Assembly (NCBI GenBank): GCA_963681505.1
Contig: OY811977.1
Location: forward strand, 5,573,223 to 5,637,222
Reading direction: 5' to 3'
Length of the DNA stretch: 64,000 nt
Source: Eunapius fragilis
Lineage: Eukaryota; Porifera; Demospongiae; Spongillida; Spongillidae
A model generated the notes under the pieces. That model did no database searches. It saw nothing but the letters and a program-made list of their open reading frames with translations, and had not been told where the DNA came from. Each line of letters opens with the position of its first letter. Within the stretch, counting starts at the first letter, position 1. Made by a program: the position numbers and the translations under genes. Positions 7,172 through 57,677 of the stretch are shown piece after piece.

Positions 7172-7202
7172 GTCCTATCATAGATTATAGGATTGGAAAC
7201 GG

Positions 7203-7210
7203 TATATAAA
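7203..7210 (+). promoter_or_regulatory. Possible TATA box of the P-type transposase gene
   Basis: TATATAAA begins at the inner edge of the left terminal repeat, about 530 bp before the proposed start codon. Position and sequence suit a core promoter, but there is no independent support. Confidence 0.35.
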
Positions 7211-7734
7211 TTTACGTGACGTGACGTCACGTTCCGTTACATGACCGTGCTTCGCATTGAATCTTCTAGTGGGCGTGTGAACTGTTGAGCATCCGTTCGT
7301 AAAGAGCTTCTTTAGTGTTGTTTAACCTATACCTGTGTGAGGACAGCCTTTTTGACACCCAAACATCGTTTAGCTATTCTTTTCCAGAAGTTAAGTTCAG
7401 ACAGCGGGCGATCGTATAGCTGCCTCCTGATTGGAAATTGGTTGTGTGATTTTCCTGGACACAGGTACCATCAGGAAACCTTTTTGTGAGTTCCAGTATA
7501 GAGTACGTAGTGGGTAGTGTGGCTGTAGAAGGTTTTGGAGCCTCTAAAAAGTGTTTTGGCGTTGTAGATCGGTAATTTGCTAGCTAATGACACCCGAAAA
7601 GCGTACTTTTTGTGTAATTTTCACATAGAAGTGGTTAGGTTTGTAGAAAATTTCAGGATATATACTGAACCAGAGATGCATGTAGAGTGGCGTGATCAAT
7701 ATTTGTTGTATGTGCTGCATGTTTATAGGAGCAA

Positions 7735-10571
7735 ATGGCTCGCAAGTTTCGTTTGGGTCGGTCACGTAAGAATGCTGAGAGAAAATCCCAACAACATAAA
7801 AAATCTACATGCTTCGTGAAAAAAGGGAGGCCTACTAAGAAAGTGAGTTATAGAGCATAAAGTTTGTACTGTCTGTTATACTTGCCACTGCAGATTGGCA
7901 TCCAACAGCTCTCCACTGGATATATTTGCCCCCATTGTGGAGTAACCAGTCTTCAATGCAGTTTGTACACTTCTGCAAAATTGAGCATGGAAGCTCAAAC
8001 CAAACAGCAGCTACTGTTACTAAGTCAGTGACAATAAATGAGGACCTAAGTTGGTCTGTTAATGTTCATGGACACAAGTTGATAGCTGGTAAGTGCAACG
8101 CTTTGTGCTGTGTAAAAGACAAGATAACAACAAAAGTTGCACTTAGTCGACTGGTACACCAAATAGACAGCTTAAGTGTTTGTTCAGGAAATCCTGATAG
8201 TCATTTTCTTGAACTAGCAGATGCTCGCAAGGGCATTTTTCATTCTCCTAGCAAAAACATGGTGGCATTTATTGATTCATTCTTCCCTGTTATGTTTGAG
8301 GATGAAATGTATAGTAGAACACTGCGCTGTAATGAATGTGAACTCTTAGTTACTAACAACAGGTGTGATACTTGCAAGCAGTATCGTTGCACTCTACGTG
8401 CTCTGCATAGCCAGTGGTTACGGCAGCAAAAAAAAACTGCCAATCATGCCTCAATATCTAGCCACACCAACTTCCGTTACTTAAAGACACCTGAACGCCA
8501 ACAGAGAATAAGAAGGCTCAGGAATGAAATAGTGAACAAAAGAAAAGAAGTGGAAAGGTTAAAGAGTTATGTGAATGTTGCCACTGAGCAGCATGGAATA
8601 TACATAGAAGAGGCTTTGGAAAAAGATATTATGCAAATTATGGAAGAGAAAAGCAATGAGATAAGAAAAACATACCAAGCAGATTCATTTCAGTGTATAT
8701 TTTGGAATCAACAACTTGAGCTTTTAAAACTGAAAGACAAACGGCAAATAAGATGGCATCCTATGGTCATTAGATGGTGTCTTAGCCTGAAGCTGCTTTC
8801 TTCTGCATCCTATCATGCCTTAAGGTCATCAAACTTAGTTATCTTACCATCTGAACGAACACTTCGAGATTATACTAACATAGTTAAAGCCAAGACTGGA
8901 TTTTCAACAGGCATTGATGCACAGCTGTGTCATGAAGCAAATAATGATAGCATTCCTGATCATGAAAAGTATGTGTGCCTAGTCTTTGATGAAGTTAAAA
9001 TAAAGGAAGATCTTGTCTTTGACAAACATTCATTAGAGCTTGTTGGTTTTGTTCAGATAGGTGATATAAATACTCACTTGTCTAAATTTGAAAGCTGCAG
9101 TATGCCACAGAAAACTCCTGTAGCACCACAACTTGCCACTCATATGCTAAGCTTCATGGTCTCTGGTATCATGACTGATTTGCAGTTCCCTTATGTTTCA
9201 TTTCCATGCTCAACGATTTCTGGTGACCAACTGTATTCAATGGTATGGGGGTGTATCCGAAGGCTTGAAACCTGTGGATTTAAAGTGCTGGCAGTCACTT
9301 GTGATGGTGCATCCTCAAACCGCACATTTATGAAGCTACACCAGTCTGGTGATAATTTAACCTACAAGACTATTAACCCATATGCAAATGAGGATCGACC
9401 CCTTTTCTTCATATCAGATCCTTCTCACTTAATAAAGACAGTGCGTAATTGTTGGGCCAATTCATATGGTCACAGCTATACAAGAAAGCTTAAGGTATGC
9501 ATCTTAGTTTTTTCCCCTCATAAATTCATTATCTCTCACATCAGATTAATGGTCAAGACATAAGCTGGCAACATTTAGTGGACCTGTACAAAGCACACAG
9601 AGGACCTGATTGTGCTACACTTGGACTGTCTATTCTACCTAAGCTGAACACATTGAACTTAATTCTTACTCTAAAATGAGAGTAGATCTTGCAGCACAAG
9701 TAAGATATTTATGGGGATGGATATGTGTGACCAGTATGACTTCCACAGGTGCTTAGCACTACTGTAGCTGAAGCATTTGCATATGAGAACAGCCCGCATA
9801 CCAAAGAGACAGAACGATTTGTTCGCATCTTTGACAAATTTTTTGATCTAATGAACACCAGAAACACCAAAGAGTTTGTACTTAAGCGAAAACCTAATCT
9901 TGCCCCCTACATTTATAATCCTGAAACTGAAGACCGTCTGAAGGTAAATTGTATGCATAAGTTTGAAAAAAAAAAACAATTATGGTCGCTATACTTATTG
10001 TCCTATAGTGGCTGCAGGATGTGTTTCTTCCGTATCTTGATGAGTGGGAAGCATATGCTCATGCTCAAGAGCATTTAAGTTCTGCTGAACAAATCAAGTT
10101 GTGTTTAAGTCAAGAAACATTGCAGGGGCTTCGCATAACAGGTACATTCTATATCATGCAATAATCACTGATTACTCTAACAAATCTAATGCAGTCCATG
10201 CATTCATTGAACTGGTGAGATATCTTCTAAAGCAACCCCGTGTGGTATATGTGCTGAGTGCGAAACTATCTCAAGATTGTGTGGAATCATTCTTCGGCAA
10301 GCAAAGAATGAGAGGTGGGTATTGTGAAAACCCAAATGTATCCTCTTTCATTAGTGGGGCCCAGTCATTACGTGTTCAGAGTTCTACAGCAATACAACCA
10401 CGTAGAGGGAACTGCAGACTTCGAGTAGTAGATGATGTTTGTATTGATGACAGACCACTTCCAAAACGGAAAAGGATAAGCAAGAAAAATAACTGCATTA
10501 CATTACATTACACACATGCAGCAAAGCATTTTAACTTAAATGTCATCAGCAGCAGCATTGTTCATATCTAA
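7735..10571 (+). CDS. P-element/THAP9-like transposase, six exons, frameshifted
   Basis: Likely exons are 7735-7842, 7894 (or 7962)-9494, 9545-9699, 9749-9943, 10009-10141 and 10195-10571; each intron is about 50-70 bp with GT and AG ends. Exon 1 encodes a basic 36-residue N terminus with an AT-hook-like KKGRPTKK. Then comes CPHC, in a different frame from FVHFCKIEHG: a C2HC-like finger split by a 1-nt shift, or by use of the acceptor at 7961. No THAP domain is visible. The RNase H-like core is clear: LVFDEVKIKEDL (first Asp), VTCDGASSNRTFM (second Asp), FISDPSHLIKTVRNCW and LSQDCVESFFGKQRMRGG (Glu). The end is PLPKRKR. Exon 3 needs a frame change just before 9676 to reach MRVDLAAQ, so this copy is probably inactive. 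Confidence 0.85.
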
Positions 10572-11871
10572 CTTCCTACGTTTAAGTTGCTTTCGTAATC
10601 CAGTTGACTTTTTTGTACATGATTTTGTTATCTGCTTGTATTGTTCCACAAATGCTCCAGCAATTGAAAACCCTCTGATTGTAACCCACAATTCGATGAT
10701 TTCTGTCAATAGTTGTTGTCCGACTATATCATCCAGTTCTACAGCAATCATAGACCAGTAGAATTGAATACTATCATTGTCATAGGCGGCCCCAGGGGGG
10801 GGCCCAGGGGGCCATGGCCCCCCATCCTCCCCTGGTTATGGCGCCCCCTCAACCCCTGTAAGTAATTTTTACTGTAGCGTTGCAATGTGATTACTACATG
10901 TAACTATGTGTAAAATAACTACAAACACTCATCTGAGCGTACAAATAGCGATTAACAAACGACTAAGATTGCAAAATTGATAATGCCCCTCCCCCTCTGG
11001 CGCCCTTCGTGACGTTGGCCCCTCCCCTTTTGGCGCCCTTCGTGGCGTTGGCTCCTCCCTTCCGTAACCGCTGGGGCCGCCTATGATTGTTGGCTATCTG
11101 AGCAATGGCATCTTGCTTATCTTTTTCAAAACCATCCAGTGTTGTCAGAAATTTCTTAACCAAACACTCTATTTCATAAAACATATTGTATGCCTCATCG
11201 TGTATATGGAACAAGCCTCCCCGGTCTATTGCTAAAAGCCATCTCTTAGTGTACTCCAGGTAAGTGCTTGTAACAGAGCCTTCACCCTTCTGAGATAAAC
11301 TTGATAAGCACACTATGAAATCCTGTCTATTCGGATCTGTACAAGTTGGTTTAGAATACTTTTGCAACAGTTTCCATGGGACATACCCAGCAGCATAGCG
11401 CAATGCATTCAGGTCATTCTCAGTGGGGTCAGCTACTACAATTTGCTGCTCATTCACTTCGTACATCGTCTTCACAAACATTCCAAACAATTTCTCATTT
11501 ACGTATTCGCATAGCAAAGGGTCTTCTAAATACTTGACATCTAAAGCACTGCTTTGAAAGTATTCTTTCCACAGCACACGAAGCTCAGATATCCTTGCTG
11601 AATGGAATTTGCTCCACAAATGCCTCTTCTTATTGTCGAAAGCCTTTTTACTCTTTGGGATCGCCGGATCGGGCACAAGTTTCTGATATGTACCTACTAT
11701 TTTATCGGCAAAGCTCTCAAACTTGTCCTGGCCATCATGGTGGCAATCGGCACTGGAGTCAAGTATGACTTTCGCTGCTTCTTTAGCCAGCTTCATTCTA
11801 GGAGTGTCTAACTGGCAGTCCTCGTCATCAAAAATGGCACAAATAGCGCTTCTAAGTATCGCAGCAGACAT
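10536..11871 (-). pseudogene. Second gene of the P-type transposon, unknown function, split by a MITE
   Basis: An open frame runs from ATG at 11871 down to the MITE at 11085 and resumes at 10775, ending at 10536. Taking out the MITE and one 5-bp target copy leaves 786+240 = 1026 nt, exactly 342 codons including the stop, with no internal stop. The protein looks soluble and helical. Notable segments are LRYAAGYVPWKLLQKY, a Trp/Asp-rich stretch ending IDRGGLFHI, and FYWSM across the insertion. Further on are IIELWVTIRGFS and a basic tail KKSTGLRKQLKRRK that could be a nuclear signal. I recall similar hypothetical proteins in sponge and coral genomes but know no function. As it stands, translation runs into the MITE and adds about 39 foreign residues. 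Confidence 0.8.
10781..11085. mobile_element. 305-bp MITE inserted in the second P-transposon gene
   Basis: The ends are perfect 15-bp inverted repeats CATAGGCGGCCCCAG, flanked by ATTGT on both sides (10776-10780 and 11086-11090). The interior has G/C-rich arms (GGCGCCC repeats) around an AT-rich centre. It is non-coding and its transposase family is not evident; a 5-bp duplication does not settle it. Confidence 0.9.
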
Positions 11872-11980
11872 AGCTAGGAAGATCGAACACAATCATGCAA
11901 TTTACGGTATCGCGAAATGCGGATGAATCCCGTAATCTTTACCATTTCCAATCCTTTTATTCTATTATCTATGGTCCTAT

Positions 11981-18206: not shown

Positions 18207-20694
18207 ACCTCCTCCTCCTTCTCCTCCTCTCCCTCCACCTCTTCATATCTTCCTTCATCCACCCATCCTCCTCCTCCCCTCCTCTTCCCTCCTACTCCTC
18301 TCCTCCTCCCTCCTCCTCCTCCCTCCTCCTCCTCCTCCCCTCCTCTTCCTCCTTTTACTCCCTCTCATTTTCCCTCCTACCTTCCTTTCCCGTTGCATCC
18401 ACCCCCACCCTCTCCTTCTCCTCTTCTCCCTCCTCCTCTTCCTATCTTCCTTCATCCACCCATCCTCCTCCTCCCTCCTCCACCTCCCCTCCTCCTCCTC
18501 CTCCCCTCCTCCTCCTCCTCCCCTCCTCCTCCTCCTCCTCCCCTCCTCCTCCTCCTCCCCTCCTCCTCCTCCTCCCTCCTCCTCCTCCCCTATTCCTCCT
18601 CCTCCCCTCCTCCTCCTCCCCTCCTCCTCCTCCCCTCCTCCTCCTCCCCTCCTCCTCCTCCCCTCCTCCTCCTCCTCTCCTCCTCCTCCCCTCCCCTCCT
18701 CCTCCTCTTACTCCCTCTCATTTTTCCTCCTACCTTCCTTCCTATTACACCTACCCCTCCCCCTCCTCCTTTCTTTTGATTGCATCCACACCTCCCCCTC
18801 CTCCTCCTCCTCCTCATGCTCCTACTTCTACCTTCCCACCAGTTGCATCCTCCCCCTCCTCTTCTTTCCATTCTACCCGTTGCATCCACCCCCACCTTCT
18901 CCTCCCCCTCCACTACCTCCTTCTCGACCTCTCCCACCTCCTCCTCCTATCTTCCTTCATCCACCCATCCTTCTCCTCCCCTCCTCCTCCTCCCTCCTCC
19001 TCCTCCTCCCCTCCTCCCTCTCCTCCTCCTTCCATTCTTCCCGTTGCATCCACACCCCACCTTCTCCTCCCCCTCCTCTACCTCCTGCTCCTTCTCTCCC
19101 TCTTCCTATCTTCCTTCATCCACCCATCCTCCTCCTCCCCTCCTCCTCCCCTCCCCCTCCTCCTCCTCTTACTCCCTCTCATTTTCCCTCCTACCTTCCT
19201 TTCTATTACACCTACCCCTCACCCTCCTCCTTTCTTTTCATTGCATCCACACCTCCCCCTCCTCCTCCTCATCCTCCTACTTCTACCTTTCTACCCGTTG
19301 CATCCTCCCCTCCTCCCCCTCCATCCACCCATCCTCCGCCTCTCCTCCCCCTCCTTCTATTTTCCTTCATCCACCCATCCTCCTTCCCATTCTCCCCTCC
19401 TCCTCCCTTCCTCCTCCTAGGACTCCTCCCCCTCCTCCTCCTCTTACTCCCTCTCATTTTCCCTCCTACCTTCCTTCCTATTACACCTACCCCTCTCCTC
19501 CTTTCGTTTCATTGCATCCACACCTCCCCCTCCTCTTCCTCCTCATCCTCCTCATCCTCCAACTTCTATCTTCCTACCCTTTGCATCCTCCCCTCCTCCC
19601 CTCCCCCTCCTCCTTCCATTCTTCCCATTGCATCCACCCCCACCATCTCCTCCCCCTCCTCTCCCTCCTCTTCCTATCTTCCTTCATCCACCCATCCTCC
19701 TCCTCCTCTCCTCCTCCCCTCCCCTCCTCCTCCTATCTTCCTTCATCCACCCATCCTCCTCCCCTCCTCCTCCCCTCTTCCTCTCTTCCTCCTCTCCTCC
19801 CCCTCCTCCTCCTCTTACTCCCTCTCATTTTACCTCCTACCTCCTTCTCCTCCTCCTATCTTCCTTTATCTACACACCCTCCTCCTCCCTCCCCTCCTCC
19901 TCTCGTACTCCCTGTCATTTTCCCTCCTACCTTCCTTTCTATTACACCTACCCCTCCCCCTCCTCCTTTCTTTTGATTTCATCTACACCTCCCCTCCTCC
20001 TCCTCCTTATCCTCCTATGTCTACCTTCCTACCTGTTGCATCCTCTCCTCCTCCTTCCATTCTTCCCGTTGCATCCACCCCCACCTTCTCCTCCTCTTCC
20101 TCTACCTCCTTTTCCTCCTCTCCCTCCTCTTCCTATCTTCCTGCATCCACCCATCCTCCTCCCCTCCTCCTCCCCTCCTCCTCCCCTCCTCCTCCCCTCC
20201 TCCTCCCCTCCTCCTCCCCTCCTCCTCCCCTCCTCCTCCCCTCCTCCTCCCCTCCTCCTCCCCTCCTCCTCCCCTCCTCCTCCCCTCCTCCTCCCCTCCT
20301 CCTCCCCTCCTCCTCCCCTCCTCCTCCCTCCTCCGCCCCTCCTCCTCCTCCTCTCCCCCTCCTCCCCCCTCCTCCTCCTCTTACTCCCTCTCATTTTCCC
20401 TCCTACCTTCCTTCCTATTACACCTACCCTCCCCCTCTCCTTGCACCCACACCTCCCCCTCCTCCTCTTCATCCTCCTACTTCTAGCTTCTTACCCGTTG
20501 CATCCTCCCCTCCTCCCCCTCTTCCTTCTTCCATTCTTCCAGTTGCACCCACCCCTCTCCCTCCTTTACCTCCTCGTGTTCCTCGTCCCCATCCTCTACC
20601 TCCCCACCCCCCCCCCCCACCTCTACCTCCTCCTCCCCCCCTTTCTCTACCTCCTCCTCCCCTCCTCTACCTCCTCCTCCCCTTCCACCTTCTT
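18207..20694. repeat. 2.5-kb polypyrimidine minisatellite with higher-order units
   Basis: The + strand is almost only C and T, dominated by CCTCCT and CCCCTCCTCCT. Interspersed anchors recur in the same order: ATTACACCTACCCC (near 18745, 19204, 19480, 19946, 20416), TTGCATCCACAC, CTTCTACCTTCC, and CTTCCTTCATCCACCCATCC. These define a higher-order unit of a few hundred bp. Very long Pro/Leu/Ser frames in all three phases are a by-product of base composition. Confidence 0.9.
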
Positions 20695-31762: not shown

Positions 31763-32833
31763 TCAGGGAAGCAGCTCAAGTGCGGTGTTGGGGGCGATCT
31801 GGACCCGGATGGCAATGAATATATTCCAGGCCTCGAACCAGCTGCCAAGGTCGCATACTTGGCGTCTGTCCTTCCCTTTGCGCTTTCCCACAGGGAGCGA
31901 GAAAGGGTCGTCTATGGGGGAAAGGAGTTTATCAAAATGGGCGTACTTACCCTTCTTGATCCTCTTCGCTTCGCGCCTCGAAGGAGTAGGGACCATGGTG
32001 GTGAAGGGAGCGTTCAGGGAGCTGCGGTCCCGCGACTTCGAGTGATGGTGCCTCTTGTGCCGCTTGGACTTCGACTTCCGCTTCTTCCTCCGTGCGTCAG
32101 AGTCGCTGGACTCGGACGACGAACTTCCGGAGCTGCTGGAGCTGTCCAAGCTGCTGGAAGTGGAGCTGCTAGCGGATGACATAGATCGTCTACGGCGTCG
32201 TTTCCTGGCGGGGGATTTGCTCTTTGAAGGGTGCTGGCGAGCCCCTTTTGAGGTGGCTGGCTCGGTGCTTATTGCACTGTCGTCGGGAGAGTGCGCTTTC
32301 CCGTGGGCGGTGACGCTGTGCATTCGGCTTATCCGCGCTGCACCCGCTGGGGAGCAGTGGAGGGTTCGCCGAGCTCGAGAGACTGCTGGTCGTTGAGGTC
32401 TCTGATGCTTTCGCCGAGTGCCGTGTGGAGGAGCAACGTCCTCGCATGCTGTCTGGTCGCCGAGGCTGTCCTCCGACGTTTCGCTGGAACCGTCGGGTGT
32501 GGGCGTGCCGATGGCCAGGTTCGATGCGGCAAGCGAGTAGCGACTGGTGGTCTCGTCCTGATCCGCATCGTCCGTACCGTCCGTGGAGTCGGAGACGGTC
32601 GATTCGGAACCTCCTGACCTCGCGGGGAGACCAGACGATCCTTGTACGTAGCTTGCCTCGTGCTGGAGAAGTCGCTCCACGAGGTCCGCTTTGTTGCCGG
32701 TGGTGGCGAGGTGAGCCTGCATCAGTTTGAGGCGGAGTGCCTCGCATGTGAGGCGCATTAGGCTTTGTCGTGACGAAACAATGCAGCTGGCAGACTTGGC
32801 TTTGGTCTGAGTGATTGCTGCCCACCTTACCAT
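31763..32833 (-). CDS. Gag-like protein with SAP motif and Arg/Ser-rich region (DIRS-like)
   Basis: 356 codons counted from ATG at 32833. That ATG lies within about 10 bp of a TATA-like box, so a start at 32758 (MRLTCEALRLKL) may be the real one. The N terminus resembles a SAP DNA-binding motif (EALRLKLMQAHLATTGNKAD then LVERLLQ). A Ser/Thr-rich linker, a basic RKRRRRR block, a long Ser run and an Arg/Ser/Lys/His-rich stretch (KSKSKRHKRHHHSKSRDRSS) follow. The C terminus has SWFEAWNIFIAIRVQIAPN, typical of gag-like proteins of such elements as I recall them. It ends at TGA near 31763; the neighbouring frame carries on with KLCRQAAARNDQQALRWDVL. Confidence 0.75.
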   Translation of the reverse strand: MVRWAAITQTKAKSASCIVSSRQSLMRLTCEALRLKLMQAHLATTGNKADLVERLLQHEASYVQGSSGLPARSGGSESTVSDSTDGTDDADQDETTSRYSLAASNLAIGTPTPDGSSETSEDSLGDQTACEDVAPPHGTRRKHQRPQRPAVSRARRTLHCSPAGAARISRMHSVTAHGKAHSPDDSAISTEPATSKGARQHPSKSKSPARKRRRRRSMSSASSSTSSSLDSSSSSGSSSSESSDSDARRKKRKSKSKRHKRHHHSKSRDRSSLNAPFTTMVPTPSRREAKRIKKGKYAHFDKLLSPIDDPFSLPVGKRKGKDRRQVCDLGSWFEAWNIFIAIRVQIAPNTALELLP

Positions 32834-33100
32834 CCTTTATATACATGTGTGTGACCTGGAACCATATCAGGTGTCAATATCTTTGGGATAATGTGTTAGA
32901 TTGGATGAGGGGATTTATTGAATGTAAGTGAGACTTATCCCAGACTTTAAGGGCTTTAGGTTTGAATGGAGGCGAGGCTTTCCCTAGGCTCAGGGTTGAA
33001 TGGAAGTAAGGCTTTCCCAGGGGGTACAACCCTGGGGATTTTAGCATATTGCTCGCATACCCCCAAAACATTAAACAAAGTTTAGTACCTAAACCAACAC
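32777..33100. repeat. DIRS-like split direct repeat (5' terminal copy, minus sense)
   Basis: 324 bp, matches 28247-28569. A mirror copy is at 63225-63548 in the right palindrome arm. Confidence 0.9.
32835..32844 (-). promoter_or_regulatory. TATA-like box in the DIRS 5' repeat
   Basis: GTATATAAAG on the minus strand, upstream of the gag-like frame. Also present in the other repeat copies (28305-28314, and on + near 63481-63490). Confidence 0.5.
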
Positions 33101-33627
33101 ATCGAAGCATGATTTTTTTTTCGTTTTTTTTGCATAATGAAATGCGAGGAAGTAATTGGTATTGTTTTAGGATGATGCACAGAATTAAATTCTAAGTGTT
33201 ACACTATGCGAGTAATAATTTTTTGTGTAGCGTAGTAATTGTTACATTCTTTAATAACAATGATGAACGTGCTTATGTATAAGGATTGTATCCATGTATA
33301 GCTTGTTCGCATTGAATCTTAAAAATTATAATAGTCCATGTGAGGTAATGCATCCATTATGACAATGTATAATAGCTTATGGGTTTTGCAAGGCATGCAC
33401 GAAACGTTTTATAAAATTATTGATGCAAGATTCATGTGCAGCAAAAGAGGATACAAAAAATAACAAAAAATATACATTCATTATACATCACAGACCACAA
33501 TTTTTTATGCAAACCTATGAGGCTGAAACAATGTGCTAAAACAATGCTTACTCTGTAATATTATAAAAAATAATGGCCATATGTAGAAGTTTTTTGTTGG
33601 TGTAAGAGAGTATAAAAAAAAACGGAA
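33101..33627. repeat. Resumed fold-back flank (paralogue of 16882-17390)
   Basis: AT-rich, matches 16884-17390 from GAAGCATGATTTTT to AGAGAGTA. It is then cut by the 33628-37350 element, while the 17.4-kb copy continues into GGGACGGTGTCC. Confidence 0.75.
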
Positions 33628-34189
33628 GGCAACCTTAAAGTACTACCTGTTCATGTAGTGCAATGTCACATCACAGGTATCATATCTCTCCCATGATAGA
33701 ACATTCTTGGAACTAACACCAGCAGCTTCCAATGAGGCATGCAGCTTTGTTCTTGACATGGTCACATGCACTGCTGCTCCCGGGAATGTGCTTTGCATGT
33801 ACTTATTTAATTTTGCGTCTGCCAGATGTTAGCTGTTCTGGCCAATATTTTTTTAGTGGACATGGATAAGAGGACCATCCAGCCAGGATGGTGTTGGAGA
33901 AATGTGGGCTGGGTGCATGGATGTGTAAGTTTGTGTGTGCCATGTGACATGGATATGATGCTGAGGGGGTGCTGTATATACGCCGAGCTCCAATTGAGAT
34001 GCACGCACATTTTAGAAACCTTAGCCTTAATTGTATAATACATTTTATCATTGTAAAGTACTGTAGATACAATATGCACACAAGATCACGCATAACTATG
34101 CTAAACAGGCATAATCCGCAGGGATTGTAAAGGTTTGCAAAGCTCCCGCCCATACCATGCAAGATGACCATTGACTAACTTTGGTTACC

Positions 34190-35160
34190 ATCAATTGTGC
34201 ATGCCGCTACAACAGCACACACACAGCGCACAGACAGACACAGCAACTGGCCAAATCAAATACATAACACACTGAAAAAACTCCTTCTGCAGAAAAACCA
34301 TAGGAAAAAACATCTTGCAGGGGTGAAAAACAACCAATAACAAGCCACTTCAAAACAGATGCACAGCAATAGCAGTCTAGGGAGCATCCAATTCATGTAA
34401 TTCAAACAACAAGAAATGGTAATAGCATTTTAATGTAAAGTAGGTCTGGGTACGAGACTAACAGGGCCATGCAGAATTACATCGACGGTCCAATCGCATA
34501 TTCGCATCGATCGATGGTCCAATCGCATCGATCGATGGTTCAGTCGCATCGATCGATGGTTTAGTAGCATCGATCGATGGTTCAAAAGCATCGATTGATA
34601 AGTGTTGACCATCGATTTCGAGTGAACAGTACGATTGTCAAAAGTGGTCGATGCGATTGAAATTTATGTCCCTACGAATGAAGGAAACGGTCGATGCGAT
34701 TGAAAAACGAGAGACCGCGATTGTCAAAAACAGTTGATGATGTAGTTGCAACCATACGAATGACATTGCGGAACCATGCGAATAAATTTGATGAATTTTG
34801 GCGCATTTGGCGCTCCATACCGATCGATGGTTTTATAGCATCCAATCGCATCGATCGATGGTTTAATAGCATCGATTATGGAGCGCCAAATGTATGGAGC
34901 GCCAAATGCCCCAAAATTCATCAAATTTATTCGCATGGTTCCGCAATGTCATTCGTACATGGTTGCAACTACATCATCCACTGTTTTTGACAATCGCGGT
35001 CTCTCGTTTTTCAATCGCATCAACCGTTTCCTTCATTCGTAGGGACATAAATTTCAATCGCATCGACCACTTTTGACAATCTTACTGTTCACTCGACATC
35101 GATGGTCAACACTTATCAATCGATGCTTTTGAACCATCGATCGATGCGACTGAACCATCA
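34190..35160. repeat. Inverted copy of the 21-bp fold-back repeat
   Basis: Contains the GGGCCATGCAGAATTACATCG junction elements, 21-bp units at 34505-34600, scattered units at 34820-34875 and 35130-35160, and two inverted copies of TTTGGCGCTCCAT around 34805-34910. Confidence 0.8.
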
Positions 35161-35294
35161 TACGGAATAGCTTATAAGGGCACTGCTATCTAGATCAATC
35201 TACCCACAGTGTACACGTTCAACGTTCAACGTTCACAGTGTACACGTTCAACACAAGCTTGCATACCAGACAGTTCAAAATAAAATAACAGTAC

Positions 35295-35446
<152 letters not shown>

Positions 35447-35578
35447 ATGTATACTGGATTTGGCATATAACAGCTAACCAGGCACTGCTTATCTCAATCA
35501 ATCTACCCACAGTTTACCAGGTCAACCTCCTTGTCTGGGCATCAAAAGAGTTGGGAGGGGGGAGGGGGGGTTACCTGT

Positions 35579-35653
<75 letters not shown>

Positions 35654-35657
35654 TGTG
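35579..35657. repeat. (TG)n microsatellite, about 38 units
   Basis: TG repeat with one TA interruption; mirrored at 60647-60720. Confidence 0.97.
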
Positions 35658-36337
35658 AAGAGGGGAGGAGGATGAACAGAGCATCACACATAAATATATG
35701 CCATCCATCCTATACAGCAATAGAATAGACTATAGTTAACCATATACAAATATTGAGTTAGAATTAAATCTACATGGTCTGCATGTAGGCCTGCATGTAA
35801 ATCGCTCTTCACTTTCACGGAAAGTGGCATATATGTATACATGGACTGTAAAATTAGCCCCCAAAAAATTTTGTATCAGGGCATGCCTATTAAATGATGA
35901 ATAGAAACCTATTAGATTGGATATGAATTTAGTCACAATAACTTCAGGCCTATTTATCCCCCCACACACACACACACACGCACACATACACACACAACAC
36001 ATACACACAGATACACACACACATGCACGCACCTTATAGTGTTCTGGTTTTTAAAGAACAATTACTATTGAATTCGTGGCATTCACCTGCCAGCAGCAAA
36101 GGGCTCCTGAGGAGTTAAATTTATTTATCACCTTAAACTGTATTCTCTCACTTTCGTGGATGCATTTTCTCTCCATTCAGATGTTATCTACACATACGGG
36201 ACGGCTTTATATCCCATGAGTTCAATTTGAAATCAAAATTTTATACACAAGCACATACATATTACGTACTCAGACATACTGATGAAAATAGATCGTCGAT
36301 ACATACACATATACATACATAAATACATAGATTCATA

Positions 36338-36372
36338 CACGCGCGCGCGCACACACACACACACACATTCAT

Positions 36373-36411
<39 letters not shown>

Positions 36412-36412
36412 T
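36338..36412. repeat. (CG)/(CA) compound microsatellite
   Basis: CGCGCGCGC followed by CA runs and TTCATACATA. CA and CG rich DNA continues patchily to 36640. Confidence 0.9.
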
Positions 36413-37479
36413 TACAATCACACGAACGCGCGCGCTCACGGGCGTTGTGCGAATGGCTATGAATCCTTCCTCTTTTTCCCTCTACATGCATAGTTTGAGT
36501 CGTGTGCGTGTATGTATGTGTGAGCGCGCGCGCACACACACACGCACACGCACTCACACACATAGGCCTACATGTAGACACACGCAATCACACATACAAA
36601 CACACGCACGAACTCCAGATCTCGCGCGCACACAAGAAGTGGATGAATACACGTATACTCTCACATGGTACTAATGTTGTAGTTCTTGGATTATGGAACA
36701 GCCAGGCCCCATGACATCATTTGCACTAGACAAATAACCTATTCAATAAGCCAACGTCCAGTTAATAAATTAATTTGCATTTTTTCATGTATCTGTATCC
36801 AGGGAAGCTACATTAAAAACACTTAATAAGATGGCGCTAATTGTATCCTAGTCCTTGTGACCCAAAACAATTTAAAAATCAAATGGCCGAAATCTATACT
36901 AGGTAAATTTTTTTAAATTTCTCTAAAAATAATAAAACTGTATGATCTTTTATTCTGGGGGCCCACAAAATCTGAATCTAAACTGGTGTAAGAATTATGA
37001 GCTGCAGAATACATTAATTAGGTGCGAAAAAGTTGATTTTCCATACATCTCTATGGAAAGTGCTGTTTTCACAAAAACTACAACAATTTTCAATACAAAG
37101 CATTGTTTTTTGTTCAGCTAAATCAAGATCGTACGTATCTGAAACAATATTGATAGCCATAAAAGTTGTACCCTATTACGTTATTAAATAGCAATCAAGT
37201 TTATAAAACGCCGTTCATTTTCTATGGTAGTTATCCGGAAGTATACGCGAATGTACAAACCGCAACAATTGTCAATTCCCTTTGACCGCGCATTTCTGGA
37301 TATGTGATGTTACATTGCACTACATGAACAGGTAGTACTTTAAGGTTGCCCTTTCCTTTGTTTATATATATGGGGCAGTGCAAGAGAAAACTGGGCTTAT
37401 GTGATTTTTAACATTTCTTCAATTCATTTTGCAGTATCGTTGCGACGTTAAAAGCTCTGTCCTTCAAACTTACTACATA

Positions 37480-38101
37480 CAAGTAAATAAAAACATTCTC
37501 TATGAGAAAGTTGGTGGCATATAGGATTTGAAGGCAATGGTGGTGTAAAAAGGAAGGAAACAAGGGTCTAGTAATAAGGAAAAATGGAATAGTCCTATAT
37601 TTAGCACACGAACAACATACTATATCCTACATATAGAAATGTGCTAAATATAGGACTATTCCATTTTTCCTTATTACTAGACCCTTGTTTCCTTCCTTTT
37701 TACACCACCATTGCCTTCAAATCCTATATGCCACCAACTTTCTCATAGAGAATGTTTTTATTTACTTGTTTCATTGATTTTTATTCATACCCGATTATGA
37801 GCCGTATAGCACGTTAAGTAATCCATCTTGATATGAGAGGGAGGTTGTAAAGGTACGACATACCATTGAGTGACCTTAACTCTTTTCGCCGAGCGAGATG
37901 CACGTTCAGGACTATGGCAATATCGCTGTCTTTTTTCAGGATCTGCTCGATACCTTGCACGTCGAGAGGTCCGTTCCTTTTCAGGATCTGAGGGGGCTTT
38001 TAAGGGGCGGCCGAAATAGAAGAGAGGTTATTAATTGTCGCCCCAGCGCGATCGAACCCACAAACGCATTTTGTATCGGGCCAGAAGCAGACAGCACCCT
38101 C

Positions 38102-38132
<31 letters not shown>

Positions 38133-38968
38133 ACTAATCGCATCTCGATACCTTGCGCGTGGAGAGATCCGTTTCTTTTCAGGCTCTGCTCGATAGTTTT
38201 CACGTTTGAGAGGCCCGCTTCTTTTCAGGCTCTGCTTTGTAGTTCCGCTCGGGCTGAATCTAATACGTCGTCTCTAGTTTTGAGGTACTATGCTCGTCGT
38301 TTGGCTTTCTTCTTATCCTGACGTGCATGAAGGCATTTTGAGAAAAAAAAAACTTCACTAAGTTACAAAGAACGTCAAACCTAAACGATAGAATGATTAT
38401 AGTACGCACGTGCACGTTATTAATAAAAACATAACCGCCAAAGTTAATTACCACTACGTGTAGTGCCCAGACTGTACACATTTGATGTATACTGCTAGTA
38501 CTTCGTATAAAGAGCGACGTAGGACCTATCCGAGTCGTGTCAGTGCAGTAAGCTATACGTGATTTGCTAACACAACCACCGATAAATGTCATGTAGCCTC
38601 GAGACGTTTTGACCACAGAAGCGAAAATGCCAGTGAATTCTGAAGCCATTGGTGTGATTTTCATTTCTTAAAAGTGTTCCTATCCCGAGTTATGCGTGGT
38701 CAAGAACAAGAACAAGAAGAAGAAGAAGAAGAACGAGAAATACGTGGGACTGGGTACGAGTTTCAAAAATTGTTTTGTTCTCTACAACCACGCGGTTTTG
38801 TGACATCAAACAAACACGAAACAGCTTGTTGTTGCCTTCTTGTACGACGACGATAACAAGGTAAGCCATCCGCTCGTCGGGAGTCTTGTTAGAAGCGGGT
38901 CGCGTTTTTTTAATGACATTCATAATCGGGGTCAAATCCTATATGAGAGTTACTAACGTAACTCTCGA
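37480..38968 (-). mobile_element. Helitron-like element, copy B
   Basis: In minus sense it begins TC, hairpin GAGAGTTAC-GTTA-GTAACTCTC, then ATATAGGA, and ends ACTTG. It is flanked by A and T in target sense, with no target duplication. The empty site is in the right arm at 58819/58820 and also in the inner paralogue near 43163. It contains the VIKKTRPASNKTPDERMAYL frame and pieces of a basic repeat protein (PEKKRTSRRARYR). The last approximately 290 bp are a palindrome. Confidence 0.75.
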
Positions 38969-39401
38969 TATTACCGGACCATTTTACTACTGCATTTTGC
39001 TGTCGAATGTTTTTTATTTACTCTCTGGGGGGTCCTCATGATTAAACAACCAGAACAGTTAGATTTCAATGGATCTCGATGAAAGAATGCCTTTTCGCGT
39101 TCATATTTGCAGCACATTTACAAAAGTGCACCCGCTATTTTTTCCGCCTTTTCGTTTGAGATGTGAGGAGCGGTTACAAAACTGCGGCGTTTGAAAGTTG
39201 TCGTTCATTTATTATCCGATTGCTCCGCCATTGTGCCGTCATTGCTATTTTAACCCCGTGACTACGAGACACTGCCCATCAAGTGCCCCACCCTCCCTCG
39301 AATCGATAGCCCAGGCCATCCGGAGGTGGACCTGGCATTTTGCAAGTTGCTTGTCACGTGAGTATCACTTGGTTCACCCTGCGTCTCCCACAGGAAAAAG
39401 T

Positions 39402-39727
39402 TTCAAAATCCCAGCCTTGGGTTTTTAAAAGCCATCCTGGAATTGAGCGTCTAGCATGGGAATAACGCAAAAACCATCCTGAAATTTGGCGTCCAGGGTG
39501 GGTAAAGCCTAAAAACCATACTGGGTTTGCCGAACATCAACCATGTTGAAGGAATGAATAAAAATGAGCTCAACACGGTTTTTGTTCGACAAACCCAGCA
39601 TGGTTTTTAAGCTATACCCACCCTGGACGCCAAATCCCAGGATGGTTTTTGCATGCTAGACGCTCAATTCCAGGATGACTTTTTGTTAAAAAAAACCCAA
39701 GGCTGCATGGGATTTTGAAACTTTTCT
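39402..39727. mobile_element. 326-bp palindromic element in the fold-back arm
   Basis: GAAAAAGTTTCAAAATCCCA at the left is mirrored by TGGGATTTTGAAACTTTTC at the right, with GCCATCCTGGAATTGAGCGT, CACCCTGGACGCCAAAT and AACCATGCTGGGTTTG-type blocks paired inward. The related site in the other arm (42725-42780) lacks it. Flanks CTCCCACAG and GTCCATCAG may be a diverged 9-bp target duplication. Confidence 0.75.
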
Positions 39728-40042
39728 CTGTGTCCATCAGTTGCGTAAACGAGTTGCGAGTTTACGGTGGTGCGTGGCGACATGAAAACGTCGAATTGAT
39801 CGAGCCTACGTGATCCAAAGGCTAAGATAACGTGCATAAGCTCAAACCCTTTTGCAATCACGTATTGTAGTTGAGCTTGTATGGTTGTTCATTTCTACGA
39901 GCGTGATTCGTTTTTTTTTTTTTTTTCTCGGACACAGGCCACACGTGCTGTCGCTCGTGTATTTGTGACTGAGATATAATCGCTACAACGTCATCCTACT
40001 TAAACTCGCGATCGACCGGTGCAACGTTTGTGTTTACTGCAA

Positions 40043-40110
40043 CTGCAGGGGCGGATACAGGACTTTCCAAAAGGGGGGGTTGAGACCCACGATATGAAAA
40101 GCAGGGTGTG

Positions 40111-40155
<45 letters not shown>

Positions 40156-40310
40156 GTGTGCTGTCCGCTTCAGGCCCGATACAATAAGCGGGGAGGGGGG
40201 GGGGGGGCTGCTTAGAAGAAGAGGGGGAGGTACCTTATATGAAAGGGGGGTTTGCAACTCCCAACCCAACCCCCCCCCCCCCCCCCCCCCTCCTTCTGTA
40301 TCCACCCCTG
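40043..40310. mobile_element. MITE of the CAGGGGCGGATACAGG family, copy 3
   Basis: The left end is CTGCAGGGGCGGATACAGG and the right end CTGTATCCACCCCTG. TGCAA flanks both (40038-40042 and 40311-40315), and the empty counterpart has a single TGCA(A) near 42452. Contains a TG tract, a G run and a C run. Mirrored at 57476-57745. Confidence 0.8.
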
Positions 40311-43300
40311 TGCAAGGTATACATGAAGACGATTTGGAATGGTACGTTACCCTAGTAGTTTACACCCATGCCAGTTTTAAATCCGGTATTATGGAGACTG
40401 AGCAGCAAAGCGATGACCAATCAGTTTACACCACTGATGGCATAGCATACATGTACACTATGCCAGTATTATCTGGCCACAATGGTGCTGTTGACAATAC
40501 TCAGACCTCCAAACTTTATGCCTTCAACACATTGGAAATCTTGTACACACAATTGTGTGTACATTGACTACGTAGTCCCTCACAACAAGTCACACACGAA
40601 ATAACTGTGCGCACACACTCCCACACAAAAATATCACAGTTCTTGGGGTAAGCAGTATGCAGTGTGTCCCTTCATATGGCTTGCTTGCATTCAGACTTCA
40701 TACCACTCGGGTATACTTGCTCCTATTAGATGCACTTAAACGTGTTGGGTCCTCCTGTTAAGTCAAGAACTTGTGTATGCATGTGACATAGATGTATGGA
40801 TGTGAGTGTACCTGTATGTGTGGTGCGCATATGTGTGCATGTGTGTTGTGTGTGTGCATGAGTGTATGCGTGTGTATTTGTGTGTGCAAGTGTGTATGTG
40901 TGTGGAGGAGATATTTTCTGCTGGAGGGGGACAGAATCTGCTAGTGTATTGTGTCCTCAGGGGACATGATTTGTAATGCAGTTATGTGCAGATTCTACTA
41001 GCAGATTTTGTCCAGGGGAACAATTTCAGTGCACAATGTTGTTGCATAGCTGATAGAATACAATGAGCCAATAGGTGTAGTGTTCTGACTGAAATTGCAT
41101 TATGTAGTAGTCCATACAATTGTGGTTTGATACAAAACACCAATCCGACAGCCACTGGTGCTGCCAAACTACTACAGTACTACTTGTACAGGCCAAGCTT
41201 GTACTCATGTGTTTGTCAGTGGTTGATATGGGGATGGGGTAGCATTCTATGGTTGCCTTTGTACATAAATTCATAGTGCATTGTGTGTTTGAGGTCAGCA
41301 ACCTGCCCACAGTCAGCCCCCCTTCCCTAAACTGCATCTGCACAGAACATAGATCTTGACCTGGATACAAAAATTCAAAATAATGTGGCCTGTACAAGTA
41401 CATGTAGCACTGTTGTAAGAGCTCTAGGAAATCAAGTTTGGCTGCACCAGTGGCCAATGGATTGGTGCTTTGTATCAAACTTGGACTACTACATAATGCA
41501 ATTTCAGTCACAGCACTACACACCATTCCCTGTTGGCTCATTGTATTTTTAATTACATGCACACATAAACGAAAGCAACCATACACACACATGCATGCAT
41601 GCACATGTACACTCACATGCATACACAGGTTCTTTGAACGGATGGGAAAAAGGAGGACGTTTTATGAAAGAGGGGGACATATTTATTTCGCTATTGGATA
41701 TTTTGTCTGGGGATGGGATCTGCTATGATACCAGTGTGAGCATGGCATGTGACTTAGAATTGGATGTCTCCAAGCAACAGTAGAAGTTTTTGAGACTGGT
41801 TCCTTAACTCTTTACAGGGATAGAACAACAGGCTAGAGCTTTGTGGTCTGTCTAGTGTCCCGCATGTGAATGTAAGCGATGTGCCTTTACCATGAATGCG
41901 GTCATACCTGTGTGATTCTACTCATTTAGGTGTGCTTAGCTTGTATAGATGTTGTGACCATCAATTAATGTAATGAGCCACAGTTGCAGACACAGGCAAC
42001 ACATACAAGTGCATCTAATAGGAGCAAGCATACCCGAGTGGTATGAAGTCTAAATGCAAGCAAGCCATATGAAGGGACACACTGCATACTGCTTACCCCA
42101 AGAACTGTGATATTTTTGTGTGGGAGTGTGTGCGCACAGTTATTTTGTGTGTGACTTGTAGTGAGGGTCTACGTAGTCAATGTACACATCATACAGACAA
42201 TTGTGTGTACAAGATTTCCAATGTGTTGAAGACATAAATATTGGGGGTCTGAGTATTGTCAATTGTGGCCAGATAATACTGGCATAGTGTATGTTATGCC
42301 ATCAGTGGTGTAAACTGATTGGTCATCACATTGCTGCTCACAGGCAACAGTCTCCAGAATACCGGATTTTAAACTGGCATGGGTGTAAACTACTAGCCTA
42401 AGGGTAACGTACCATTGATTCCAAATCGTCTTAATGTATACATTGCAGTGAACACAAACGCTGCGCCGGTCGAGTTTAAGTAGGATGACGTGTAGCGATT
42501 ATATCTCAGTCACAAATACACGATCGACAGCACGTGTGGCCTGTGTCCGAGAAAAAAAAAAAAACGAATCACCCTCGTAGAAATGAACAACCATACAAGC
42601 TCAACTGCAATACGTGATTGCAAAAGGGTTTGAGCTTACGCACGTTATCTTAGCCTTTGGATCACGTAGGCTCGATCAATTCGACGTTTTCATGTCGCCA
42701 CGCGCCACCGTAAACTCCCAACTTGTTTACGCAACTTATGGAGACGCAGACCGGTGTACCCTAGTGATGCTCACGTGACAAGCAACTTGCAAAATGCCAG
42801 GTCCACCTCCGGATGGCCTGGGCTATCGATTCGAGGGAGGGTGGGGCACTTGATGGGCAGTGTCTCGTAGTCACGGGGTTAAAATAGCAATGACGGCACA
42901 ATGGCGGAGCAATCGGAAGACAAATGAACGAAAACTTTCAAACGCCGCAGTTTTGTAACCGCTCCTCACATCTCAAACGAAAAGGCGGAAAAAATAGCGG
43001 GTGCACTTTTGTAAATGTGCTGCAAATATGAACGCGAAAAGGCATTCTTTCATCGAGATCCATTGAAATCTAACTCTTCTGGTTGTTTAATTATGAGGAC
43101 CCCCCAGGGAGTAAATACAAAACATTCGACAACAAAATGCAGTAGTAAAATGGTCTGGTAATATATGTAGTAAGTTTGAAGGACAGAGCTTTAAAGGTCG
43201 CAAAGATATTGCAAAATGAATTGAAGAAATGTTAAAAATCACATAAGCCCAGTTTTCTCTTTCACTGCCCCATATATATATATATGGGACGGTGTCCAGC

Positions 43301-43740
43301 AAAATCACCCTTCTGGAGTTTATATTTTATCACTATAAAAATTGTACGTTACACAAAGCAATATATCTTCACAACGGTTTTATGTTTTCTTTACAAATTT
43401 CGTACACTTGTTCACACATCAGTTCTCTCTGTGCAAACCGATTTTGGTGCTCTAGATATTTTCCGTGCCATGGTTACAAAGGTCTCTAACCCAATGGGTT
43501 AAGATTCCACATTTCTCCAGATACGAGTGACGATAACATGTCAAAATTGGAGTGTACATAGAAGAGTCCTGTAGCTATTGATTTCTGCAGATCGTTAAGT
43601 TTTTTCTTATCCGTTACGGAGATATGGATTTTCAAAGTAATTCGACATTTCGCGCCACTCACGTTAGCAACCCAATTAATATGCGATTATGTAATGGTCA
43701 CGCCCTTTTAATTTGAAATGAACCCCGCTTTGATCGTTCT

Positions 43741-44066
43741 CAGCCCCGGATCCAGCATAGGCTCGGGGGGGGGCGGCCGCCCCCCCCATTCATACGAAAT
43801 GCCGCCCTCTGGGACCAATTGCCGCCCCCCCCCCCCCCCCCCGCTCCATTCTCCACGCACTATCACGCGCGCGCGCACAAAGCAAGATATAAATCATCGT
43901 ACGGCAAGCACCCCCCTCCCCCCCCCACTTTTCGTATCGGACCTGAAGCAGACTGCACCCCCCCCGCTTTTCGTATCCGCCCCTGGCTTCGCATGTATTC
44001 ATTGTCAATGTGCCGCCCCTCCAGTAAAACCGCCCCCCCCTTAGCCAAATCCTGGATCCGGGGCTG
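43741..44066. mobile_element. hAT-type MITE, 326 bp, 8-bp target duplication
   Basis: The termini CAGCCCCGGATCCAG and CTGGATCCGGGGCTG are perfect inverted repeats. ATCGTTCT is present on both sides (43733-43740 and 44067-44074). The paralogous site at 17852-17859 has one ATCGTTCT and no insert. An 8-bp duplication and CAG...CTG ends fit the hAT superfamily. Long G and C runs lie inside. Confidence 0.92.
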
Positions 44067-44420
44067 ATCGTTCTACGTTGGTATATAAGCGATCGTACCT
44101 CGTACGCTATGTTTCAACATAAAACAGTCTCGTACGTTCACATGTATCGCTTATGATGGATGCTGTGAATATTCATGGAGTTTATATTGTGCACCCTTTT
44201 TCCATATCGGCTCGGTTTCTGGCATGTACATGTAAGCATGCATGTACCATGCCTTCTAATCATGGGGCCACCTTCTTCACCCTCTACACCCTCTACACTA
44301 GTCTGGGGACCAGATGACTTGCTTGCGACAGTCAGTTATCTGGTACACAAACTGCAGTACCTTTACTCATAATGGTTTATCTCTCTAGACCATTCATATT
44401 CACTGCCTTTCTTTCTATAA

Positions 44421-47400
44421 TATCTCCTCCTCCTCCTCCTCTCCCTCCACCTCTTCCCATCTCCTTCATCCACCCATCCTCCTCCTCTCCTCCTCCCCCT
44501 CCTCCTCCTCCTCCTCCTCCTTCTTTTACTCCCTCTCATTTTCCCTCCTACCTTCCTTCCTATTACACCTACCCCCTCCTCTCCTATCTTTTGATTGCAT
44601 CCACACCTCCCACTCCTCCTCCTCATCCTCCAACTTCTACCTTCCTTCCCGTTGCATCCTCCCCTCCTCCTTTCATTTTTCCCGTTGCATCCACCCCCCC
44701 ACCTCCTCCCCATCCTCTACCTCCTTCTCCTCCTCTCCCTCCTCCCCTTCCCATCTTCCTTCATCCACCCATCCTCCTCCTCCCCTCCTCCTCCTCCTCC
44801 TCCTCCTCCTCCCTCCTCCTGTCCCCCTCTCCTCCTCCTCCCTCCTCCTCCCCTCCTCTCTTCTCCCCCTCATCACTTCCTCCCCTCCTCCTCCCCTCCC
44901 CTACTTCTACCTTCCTACCTGTCGCATCCTCCCCTCCTCCTTCCATTCTTCCAGATGCATCCCCCCCCACCTTCTCCTCCTCCCCTCCTCCTCCCCTCCT
45001 CCTCACCTCCTCCTCCTCCTCCTCCCCACCTCCTCCTCCTCCCCACCTCCTCCTCCTCCTCCCTCCCCCTCCCTCCCCCTCCCCTCCCCTCCTCCTCCTC
45101 TTACTCCCTCTCATTTTTCCTCCTACCTTCCTTCCTATTACACCTACCCCTCCTTTCTTTTGATTGCATCCACACCTCCCCTCCTCCTCCTCACTCCCCT
45201 ACTTCTACCTTCCTACCATTGCATCCTCCCCTCCTCCCCCTCCTCCTCCTTCCATTCTTCCCATTGCATCCACCCCCACCTTTGCCTCCCCTTCTCTACC
45301 TCCACCTCCTCCTCTCCCACCTCCTCCTCCTATCTTCCTTCATCCACCCATCCTCCTCCCCTCTGCCTCCCTCCTCCTCCCCTCCTCCTCCCTCCTCCTC
45401 CCCTCCTCCTCCCTCCTCCTCCCCTCCTCCTCCCTCCTCCTCCCCTCCTCCTCCCTCCTCCTCCCCTCCTCCTCCCTCCTCCTCTCCTCCATCTCATTTT
45501 CCCTCCTACCTTCCTTTTTATTACACCTACCCCTCCCCCTCCTCTTTTCATTTCATTGCATCCACACTTCCCCCTCCTCCTCATATACTCCTACTTATAC
45601 TATCCCACCCGTTGAATCCTCCCCCTCATCCTCCTTCCATTCTTTCCGTTGCATCCACCTCCACCTTCTACTCCCCTCCTCTACCTCCTTCTCCTCCTCC
45701 ATTCTTCCTTCATCAACCCATCCTCCACCTCCTCCTCCCCTCCCCCTCATCCTCCTCTTACTCCCTCTTATTTTCCCTCCTACCTTCCTTCGTATTACAC
45801 CTACCCCTCCCCCTCCTCCTTTCGTTTGGTTGCATCCCCACACCTCCTCTTCCTCATCCTCCTACTTCTACCTTCCTACCAGTTGCATCCTCCCCTCCTC
45901 CCCTCCTCCTCCTTCCATTCTTCCCATTGCATCCACCCCCACCTTCTCCTCCTCCTCCTTCTCTCCCTCCTCTTCTTCCTATCTTCCTTCATCCACCCAT
46001 CCTCCTCCTCCCCTTCTCCTCCCTCCTCTTCCCCTCCTCCTCCCCTCCTCCTCGCCTCCTCCTCCCCTCCTCCTCCCCTCCTCCCCCCCTCCTCCTCCCT
46101 CCTCCTCCCCTCCTCCTCCCTCCTCCTCCCTCCTCCTCCCTCCTCCTCCTCCTCCTCCTCCTCCCCCTCCTCCTCCCCTCCTCCTCATCTACCCCTCCTC
46201 TCTTCCTCCCCTCCTCCTCCTGTCCCCTACTTCTACCTTCCTACCTGTCACATCCTCTCCTCCTCCTTCCATTCTTTCCATTGCATCCACCCTCACCTTC
46301 TCCTCCCCCCTCTACCTCCTCCTCTTCTCCCTCCTCCTCTTCCTATCTTCCTTCTTCCAACCATCCTCCTTCTCCTCCTCCCTCCTCCTCTTCTCCCTCC
46401 TCCCTCCTCCTCTTCTCCCTCCTCCTTCTCTTACTCCCTCTCATTTTTCCTCCTACCTTCCTTCCTATTACACCTCCCCCCTCCTCCATTCATTTGATTG
46501 CATCCACACCTCCCCTCCTCCTCCTCATCCTCCTACTTCTACCTTCCTACCTGTTGCATCCTCCCCTCCTCCTCTTTCCATTCTACCCGTTGCATCCACC
46601 CCCACCTTCTCCTCCCCTCTACTACCTCCTTCTCCTCCTCTCCCACCACCTCCTCCTCCTATCTTCCTTCATCCACCCATCCTCCTCCCTCCTCCTCCCA
46701 TCTCCTCCCCTCCTCCCCTCCCCCTCCCCTCCTCCTTGACTCCTCCTCTCCTCCTCCTCTCCTCCCCTCCCCCTCCTCCTTTTACTCCTTCTCATTTTCC
46801 CTCCTACCTTCCTTTTTATTACACCTACCCCTCCCCCTCCTCCTTTCATTTCATTGCATCCACACTTCCCCTCCTCCTCATATACTCCTACTTATGCTAT
46901 CCTACCCGTTGATCCTCCCCCTCCTCCTCCTTCCATTCTTCCGTTGCATCCACCCCCACCATCTCCTCCCCTTCTCTACCTCCTTCTCCTCCTCCTCCTA
47001 TCTTCCTTTATCCACCCATCCTTCTCCCCTCCACCTCCTCTCCTCCTCCCCTCCACCTCCTCTCCTCCTCCCCTCCACCTCCTCTCCTCCTCCCTCCACC
47101 TCCTCTCCTCCTCCCCTCCACCTCCTCTCCTCCTCCCTCCACCTCCTCACCTCCTCCCCTCCACCTCCTCTCCTCCTCCCCTCCACCTCCTCCCCTCCAC
47201 CTCCTCTCCTCCTCCCCTCCACCTCCTCTCCTCCTCCCCTACACCTCCTCTCCTCCTCCCCTCCACCTCCTCTCCTCCTTCTGTCCTCTTCCTCCTCCTC
47301 CTCCTCCTCCTCCTCCTCCCCTCCCCTTCCTCCTCCTCTTCTTATTACACCTACCCCTCCTCCTTCCTTTTGATTGCATCCACACCTCCCCTCCTCCTCC

Positions 47401-54505: not shown

Positions 54506-54513
54506 TATATATA

Positions 54514-57500: not shown

Positions 57501-57632
57501 GGGGGGGGGGGGGGGGGTTGGGTTGGGAGTTGCAAACCCCCCTTTCATATAAGGTACCTCCCCCTCTTCTTCTAAGCAGCCCCCCCCCCCCCCTCCCCGC
57601 TTATTGTATCGGGCCTGAAGCGGACAGCACAC

Positions 57633-57677
<45 letters not shown>

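Follow-up and report, generated by a model that had tools for sequence, protein, structure and literature searches.

A P-superfamily transposon with a convergent second gene in the sponge Eunapius fragilis

An element with two tail-to-tail genes

P elements are the textbook example of a cut-and-paste transposon with a single transposase. We examined a 64,000-nucleotide stretch of contig OY811977.1 of the sponge Eunapius fragilis (the window; the source genome comprises 219 Mb in 24 contigs), which contains a P-superfamily element at positions 7179-11973. This element has inverted ends and a perfect 7-bp target-site duplication and encloses two genes arranged tail to tail. The tips lie exactly at 7179 and 11973, the left end reading CATAGATTATAG-GATTGGAAACGGTA and the right end, read inward, CATAGATAATAGAATAAAAGGATTGGAAATGGTA. 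The duplicated GTCCTAT occupies 7172-7178 on the left and 11974-11980 on the right, perfect over its 7 bp. The left terminal inverted repeat CATAGATTATAGGATTGGAAACGGTA (7179-7204, plus strand) pairs with the right terminal inverted repeat (11940-11973, minus strand) and is made shorter than it by a gap of several bases. Terminal inverted repeats of the P superfamily usually begin with CA; our search for ends and duplications itself required a CA start and allowed duplications of 7 or 8 bp.

Gene 1, a P-superfamily transposase gene (7735-10571, plus strand), begins with the ATG at 7735 and runs through about six predicted exons, the last frame ending at 10571. Gene 2, a putative C-terminal-domain gene (10536-11871, minus strand), extends from the ATG at 11871 to a stop at 10536 and is split in this copy by an insert of about 305 bp resembling a miniature inverted-repeat transposable element (approximately 10780-11086; inverted ends TCATAGGCGGCCCC, flanked by TTG on either side). 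The insertion point is intact in gene 2 of loci L009 and L013, where the frame reads through without the insert. The window copy is decayed, with a change of frame in the transposase near 9640-9650 in addition to the insert in gene 2; the stretch of L013 that corresponds to the frame change stays open. The initial annotation of this DNA had described a P-type element with a convergent second gene, its ends, the GTCCTAT duplication, and an overlap between the two genes, and each of these was confirmed where it had been placed. The overlap (10536-10571, between the last frames of the two genes) is nevertheless not general among convergent copies: it recurs in three of the 11 others checked (L009, L010, and L012, the nearest kin of the window copy), whereas the genes of the remaining eight lie about 15-252 bp apart.

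The product of gene 1 matches PF21787 (E 4.7e-23) and PF21789 (E 6.6e-8), both above the cut-off, and PF21788 just under it (E 7.5e-5), corresponding to RNase H halves with a GTP-binding-type insertion; a phmmer search matched the Drosophila P transposase 6p5a with an E of 7.8e-6. By analogy with the D, D, E triad of the P transposase, as given in section 8 of PMC7776569, the presumed catalytic codons, all on the plus strand, are those of a first Asp at 8988-8990 (in FDEVK), a second Asp at 9303-9305 (in CDGASSN), and a Glu at 10284-10286 (in VESFFGKQR, within the PF21789 match). All candidates for the triad sit in gene 1 and none in gene 2. A scan for a THAP domain, confined to the frame at 7926-9563 and thus not including the short first exon, gave no match. 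Gene 1 stops about 70 residues past its RNase H_C match. The element has a TNP-type RNase H catalytic domain with a GTP-binding insertion, ends that start with CA, and a 7-bp duplication, as expected of the P superfamily, but not the single polypeptide with a C-terminal domain that marks the classical P element, gene 1 ending at 10571 and gene 2 lying on the opposite strand with its own ATG. It is thus a P-superfamily element that departs from the classical form in the one-polypeptide feature.

Mobility of the gene pair

We assessed mobility in 18 convergent loci, leaving out L044, of which only the tail is present. Matching ends with perfect 7-bp duplications were found at ten of them (the window, L013, L014, L018, L031, L032, L033, L036, L037, and L039), and a search for a duplicated pair found none at L009, L010, L012, L022, L028, or L038. 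Since L031, L032, and L033 are 99.8% identical at three different sites, the gene pair has moved recently, both genes travelling as one unit. Individual copies carry damage: L033 lacks about 730 bp in its middle, and gene 2 of L014 is out of frame at its end. Internally deleted copies, which the initial annotation had proposed to look for, were also present (L016 and L017, each 2.3 kb, and L021, 2.1 kb), with perfect 7-bp duplications and with gene 2 retained; L021 gave no transposase match. Directly beside the complete two-gene copy at L018, and on the same strand, lies part of a second P-type transposase (L018:8196-9338).

The end pattern CATAGATN{3,16}ATTGGAAAYG occurs 694 times in the genome (345 + 349) against no occurrence of a reversed control, and is therefore beyond chance; places were listed for about the first 100, all on one contig. 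The end sequence of the L031-L033 family occurs 50 times at up to two mismatches, and among the matches listed at least 15 pairs of these ends lie exactly 1,204 bp apart. This 1,204-bp set is a young, homogeneous, non-autonomous family whose ends are those of the youngest two-gene family; examples are C2:10977971-10979174 and C3:10035337-10036540. The set of elements in the genome as a whole is large and old.

Genome-wide census of gene pairs

Searches of the genome gave at least 115 matches to the window's gene 2, at least 103 to its transposase, and at least 57 to PF21787, the counts of this census all being minimum values, since scoring was limited to the best candidates of each search. Merging match coordinates yielded 64 transposase clusters and 109 gene 2 clusters. 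In a first pass, a 3' gene 2 lay on the opposite strand in 25 of the 64 transposase clusters and on the same strand in 16; two clusters had only a distant 5' gene 2, and for 21 no gene 2 was detected within 8 kb. The final tally, which adds gene 2 queries from two other subfamilies and one fetched stretch (L044), stands at 29 clusters with a 3' gene 2 on the opposite strand, 18 with one on the same strand, and 17 with none detected; gene 2 thus lies on the 3' side in 47 of 64 clusters. The distance between transposase and gene 2 was 1.28-1.60 kb in 37 of the 41 first-pass pairs and 0.69, 1.79, 1.93, and 2.18 kb in the other four. Counted among the clusters without gene 2 are one with gene 2 at 7.4 kb on the 5' side (C7:4245966) and two with a same-strand gene 2 at 7.9 and 9.2 kb on the 3' side (C14:2504078 and C1:24486957). 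The last of these (gene 2 at C1:24476877-24477749, transposase at C1:24486957-24488447) may be a fused copy that an insert has interrupted.

These counts support the earlier suggestion that the second gene is a regular, multi-copy passenger of many P-type elements, convergent and inside the ends (29 of 64 clusters). The contrary outcome, a single-copy gene 2 away from P ends, was not found, gene 2 being multi-copy with 109 clusters. The other matches to the window's gene 2 are for the most part short pieces with no transposase match nearby, many of them covering about residues 45-98. Short copies may retain the 5' part of gene 2 beside the right end, perhaps as DNA needed in cis; coordinates point to one such case (C1:13533625-13533832).

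Features of the gene 2 protein

The window's gene 2 encodes 262 residues ahead of the insert, and open copies elsewhere encode about 300-350. Its conserved core contains the motifs NALRYAAGYVP..L and W...DRGGL, and its C-terminus is rich in K and R. The ATG at 11871 is 102 bp from the right tip; across eight convergent copies measured this distance was 77-125 bp in seven and 655 bp in L013, so the promoter of gene 2 probably sits in or beside the right end. The ratio of nonsynonymous to synonymous substitution rates (dN/dS) was 0.36, 0.33, and 0.15 in three of six pairs of gene 2 sequences, and the gene shows signs of selection.

Comparison of gene 2 with Pfam, NCBIfam, and PDB sequences gave no identifying match, and a scan of viral and prokaryote contigs with a gene 2 profile gave no relatives. 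Matches to RGS10 and thymidylate kinase (E 0.01-0.12) were treated as chance, and an apparent 1750-aa frame on C21 with a gene 2 match was set aside, as it runs into a stretch of N.

Apparent fusion of the two genes in one clade

In the same-strand families, gene 2 follows the exon for the C-terminal part of RNase H, and at L020 this exon and gene 2 share one frame with no stop between them. A candidate joint intron of 54-69 bp, with GT-AG borders, in phase 1, and at the same place, was found in four of seven loci examined (L020, L025, L026A, and L034, the last with a near copy at L035), and splicing at this intron would join the two parts. L026A is a complete fused element with ends CAGAGATAATATATAG..., a duplication GTATAAG, and 568 genome occurrences of its ends at up to two mismatches. 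In these families the gene 2 domain seems to form the C-terminal portion of the transposase. Because it occurs in a fused frame or in joinable exons here and on its own in the convergent copies, the same domain would be the tail of a transposase in some elements and a separate gene in others.

A tree of 24 transposase rows (five of 29, L011, L015, L016, L017, and L021, were dropped for having fewer than 110 aligned residues) places the eight fused rows in one clade with support of 100/100. Rooted with pieces of the Drosophila P transposase, the fused rows are nested inside the convergent ones: a clade of eight fused and four convergent rows has support of 99/99 and 100/100, deeper forks have 80-89, and a root between the fused and convergent states was rejected by the approximately unbiased (AU) test at p 0.0045, with the caveats that the outgroup branch is very long, that some deep branches have 80-89% support, and that the tested group was named after the tree had been seen. 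A gene 2 tree of 26 rows recovers the same clades as the transposase tree, its seven fused rows forming one clade (100/99). Pairwise distances of transposase and gene 2 correlate with r 0.893 over 240 pairs, a value reached in none of 300 permutations; transposase and gene 2 have co-diverged. On this evidence we dropped our first idea, that the fused state is simply ancestral and the convergent state derived. Within the set of this genome the convergent arrangement appears to be the older one and the fused arrangement to be derived from it; a CATAGAT-type end 0.5 kb downstream of the fused copy L024 is in line with such a derivation. If gene 2 is a true P C-terminal domain (CTD), an earlier fused ancestor must have been split before the convergent state arose.

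A probable two-gene transposase

We consider it likely that two genes encode the transposase of this P-superfamily cut-and-paste transposon, with gene 2 providing a C-terminal subunit. Gene 1, read from the left end, would supply the portion that contains the RNase H catalytic domain and the GTP-binding-type insertion. The CTD would come from gene 2, which reads inward from the right end; the two products would assemble into the active transposase, and both would be needed. Fusion of two proteins in a sister clade is a classic sign that they work together, and gene 2 is most likely a transposase subunit and not a foreign partner because the same domain appears fused in a sister clade and the two trees agree. 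In Drosophila, according to section 8 of PMC7776569, the P CTD is all helical, hangs on a flexible linker, and lies between the RNase H domain and a second subunit's GTP-binding domain, where it contacts both DNAs. A split of P transposase at this linker is plausible because the CTD is so flexibly attached, which together with the fusion in the sister clade is why we read gene 2 as the CTD subunit. By analogy, the subunit may be placed as in Drosophila, flexibly tethered between RNase H and another subunit's GTP-binding domain and contacting transposon and target DNA. The initial annotation had offered a separate repressor, an end-binding factor, or a mobilised host gene as roles for the partner; these are disfavored by the apparent presence of the same domain at the C-terminus of the transposase in the sister clade, and the best reading of gene 2 is that it separately encodes a domain of the transposase.

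Several observations weigh against this reading. The profile of the P transposase CTD, PF12596, matches gene 2 in a few copies with an E of only 0.05-0.08 (best E 0.048) and scores 14 bits in the rows shown against a curated cut-off of 22.6; a genome-wide PF12596 search at E 1 gave no match, although its controls gave none either. Profile searches of the PDB with gene 2 did not find the P CTD, and a profile of the fused protein matched 6p5a in its RNase H part only. Homology of gene 2 to the Drosophila P CTD, resting on sub-threshold profile matches, is accordingly not a safe conclusion. Support from the fused loci is uneven: the joint introns of L025 and L026A ranked first in a mechanically generated list, the positions of the L020 and L034 introns were chosen by eye, and L019, L023, and L024 showed no convincing joint intron. 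The gene 2 frame of L039 lacks an ATG before its conserved part, and of the remaining gene 2 pairs L013/L014 gave a dN/dS of 1.7 (with a dS of 0.03 and the L014 tail out of frame) and two were saturated. Finally, 17 of the 64 transposase clusters have no detected gene 2. Four of these (L040-L043) were inspected over 2.6-2.7 kb downstream each: three lack both the last transposase exon and gene 2, and the fourth has just a 27-residue piece of that exon. These four look like truncated or interrupted copies rather than transposase-only elements, and transposase-only copies with such ends, which would have spoken against a conserved partner, were not found, the inspection covering these four of the 17 clusters.

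We weighed three other explanations. Gene 2 could be an independent accessory protein (a regulator, an end-binding factor, or a target factor), once acquired as RAG2L was by RAG-like elements and later fused by inversion in one clade. The convergent state lying deeper in the Drosophila P-rooted tree, with the rejected root between states, speaks for this, as do the lack of a safe match to the P CTD and the precedent of RAGL pairs as convergent two-gene transposons (described in PMC7204232). We nevertheless hold it to be unlikely, as gene 1 of the window ends about 70 residues past RNase H_C, at the place where Drosophila P continues into its CTD and which gene 2 fills in the fused clade, and as the weak PF12596 matches with a position shown, those of L013 and L037, both fall on profile stretch 71-97. 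Somewhat more doubtful still is that the fused state is original and that the convergent copies arose by several separate splits. It would accord with Drosophila P transposase and zebrafish THAP9, each described as one polypeptide with a CTD in PMC7776569 and PMC10983969, but the fused rows form one clade beside or inside convergent lineages, and a tree holding the convergent rows apart from the outgroup and fused rows was rejected, a result that is not final given the rooting caveats above. It is very improbable that a single P copy trapped an unrelated host gene or a nested element and that this is gene 2. P-type copies here do carry nested inserts, such as the one in the window's gene 2, but this explanation is refuted by the same-sided, near-constant placement of gene 2 in dozens of loci, by its co-divergence with the transposase, and by the presence of both genes within duplicated ends at ten loci.

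Returning to the two-gene transposase, we tentatively suggest that the arrangement could act as a genetic on-switch. In Drosophila, PMC7776569 describes that retention of the third intron of P yields a protein without the C-terminal third, which is a repressor, and that adding this third gives the transposase. The sponge element might by analogy encode a heteromeric P-type transposase in which gene 1 alone binds the ends and represses, and gene 2, driven from the right end, completes the enzyme; the fused clade, with its short intron at the joint, might then be a re-wired return to one gene. A separate convergent CTD gene beside apparently fused sisters would provide a natural dissection of the role of the CTD. 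Whether P transposase works in two pieces, and whether the CTD split replaces the splicing switch of Drosophila, are testable.

Other features of the window

The window also contains a large palindrome (arms 32325-48038 and 48317-64000), whose arms, about 15.7 kb each, show 99.3-99.95% identity along most of their length. A related stretch of about 1.5 kb (91% alike) sits at a different place in each arm (37477-38971 and 53061-54508), which favors a real duplication over an assembly error of the simple fold-back kind. Imperfect CCT/AGG arrays, kilobases long and extremely skewed between the strands, lie at 18208-20380, 44702-47542, and 48815-51642.

Comparison with known transposons

Our literature searches, of partial coverage and with Repbase outside it, returned no report of a two-gene P element. 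The element shares with the Drosophila P element and THAP9 the RNase H domain with a GTP-binding-type insertion (PF21787-PF21789), ends that start with CA and measure about 31 bp (31 bp in Drosophila P), and internally deleted copies. It differs from them in placing the C-terminal part on a second, convergent gene and in having duplications of 7 bp (in ten convergent copies, three deleted copies [L016, L017, and L021], and one fused copy) rather than 8. Duplications of 7 bp are found in Galileo, a P-superfamily transposon of Drosophila, but the ends of Galileo are very long and the excerpt of PMC3573991 available for it mentions no second gene. Two tail-to-tail genes within inverted ends are also found in RAG-like transposons (ProtoRAG, RAG1L-RAG2L), as described in PMC7204232. 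Those elements, however, have a Transib/RAG1-type transposase and 5-bp duplications, in contrast to the P-type Pfam domains and 7-bp duplications found here, and RAG2L is not known to be a separated domain of the transposase with fused counterparts in sister elements. The sponge element provides, beside the RAG-like elements, another case of a convergent two-gene DNA transposon.

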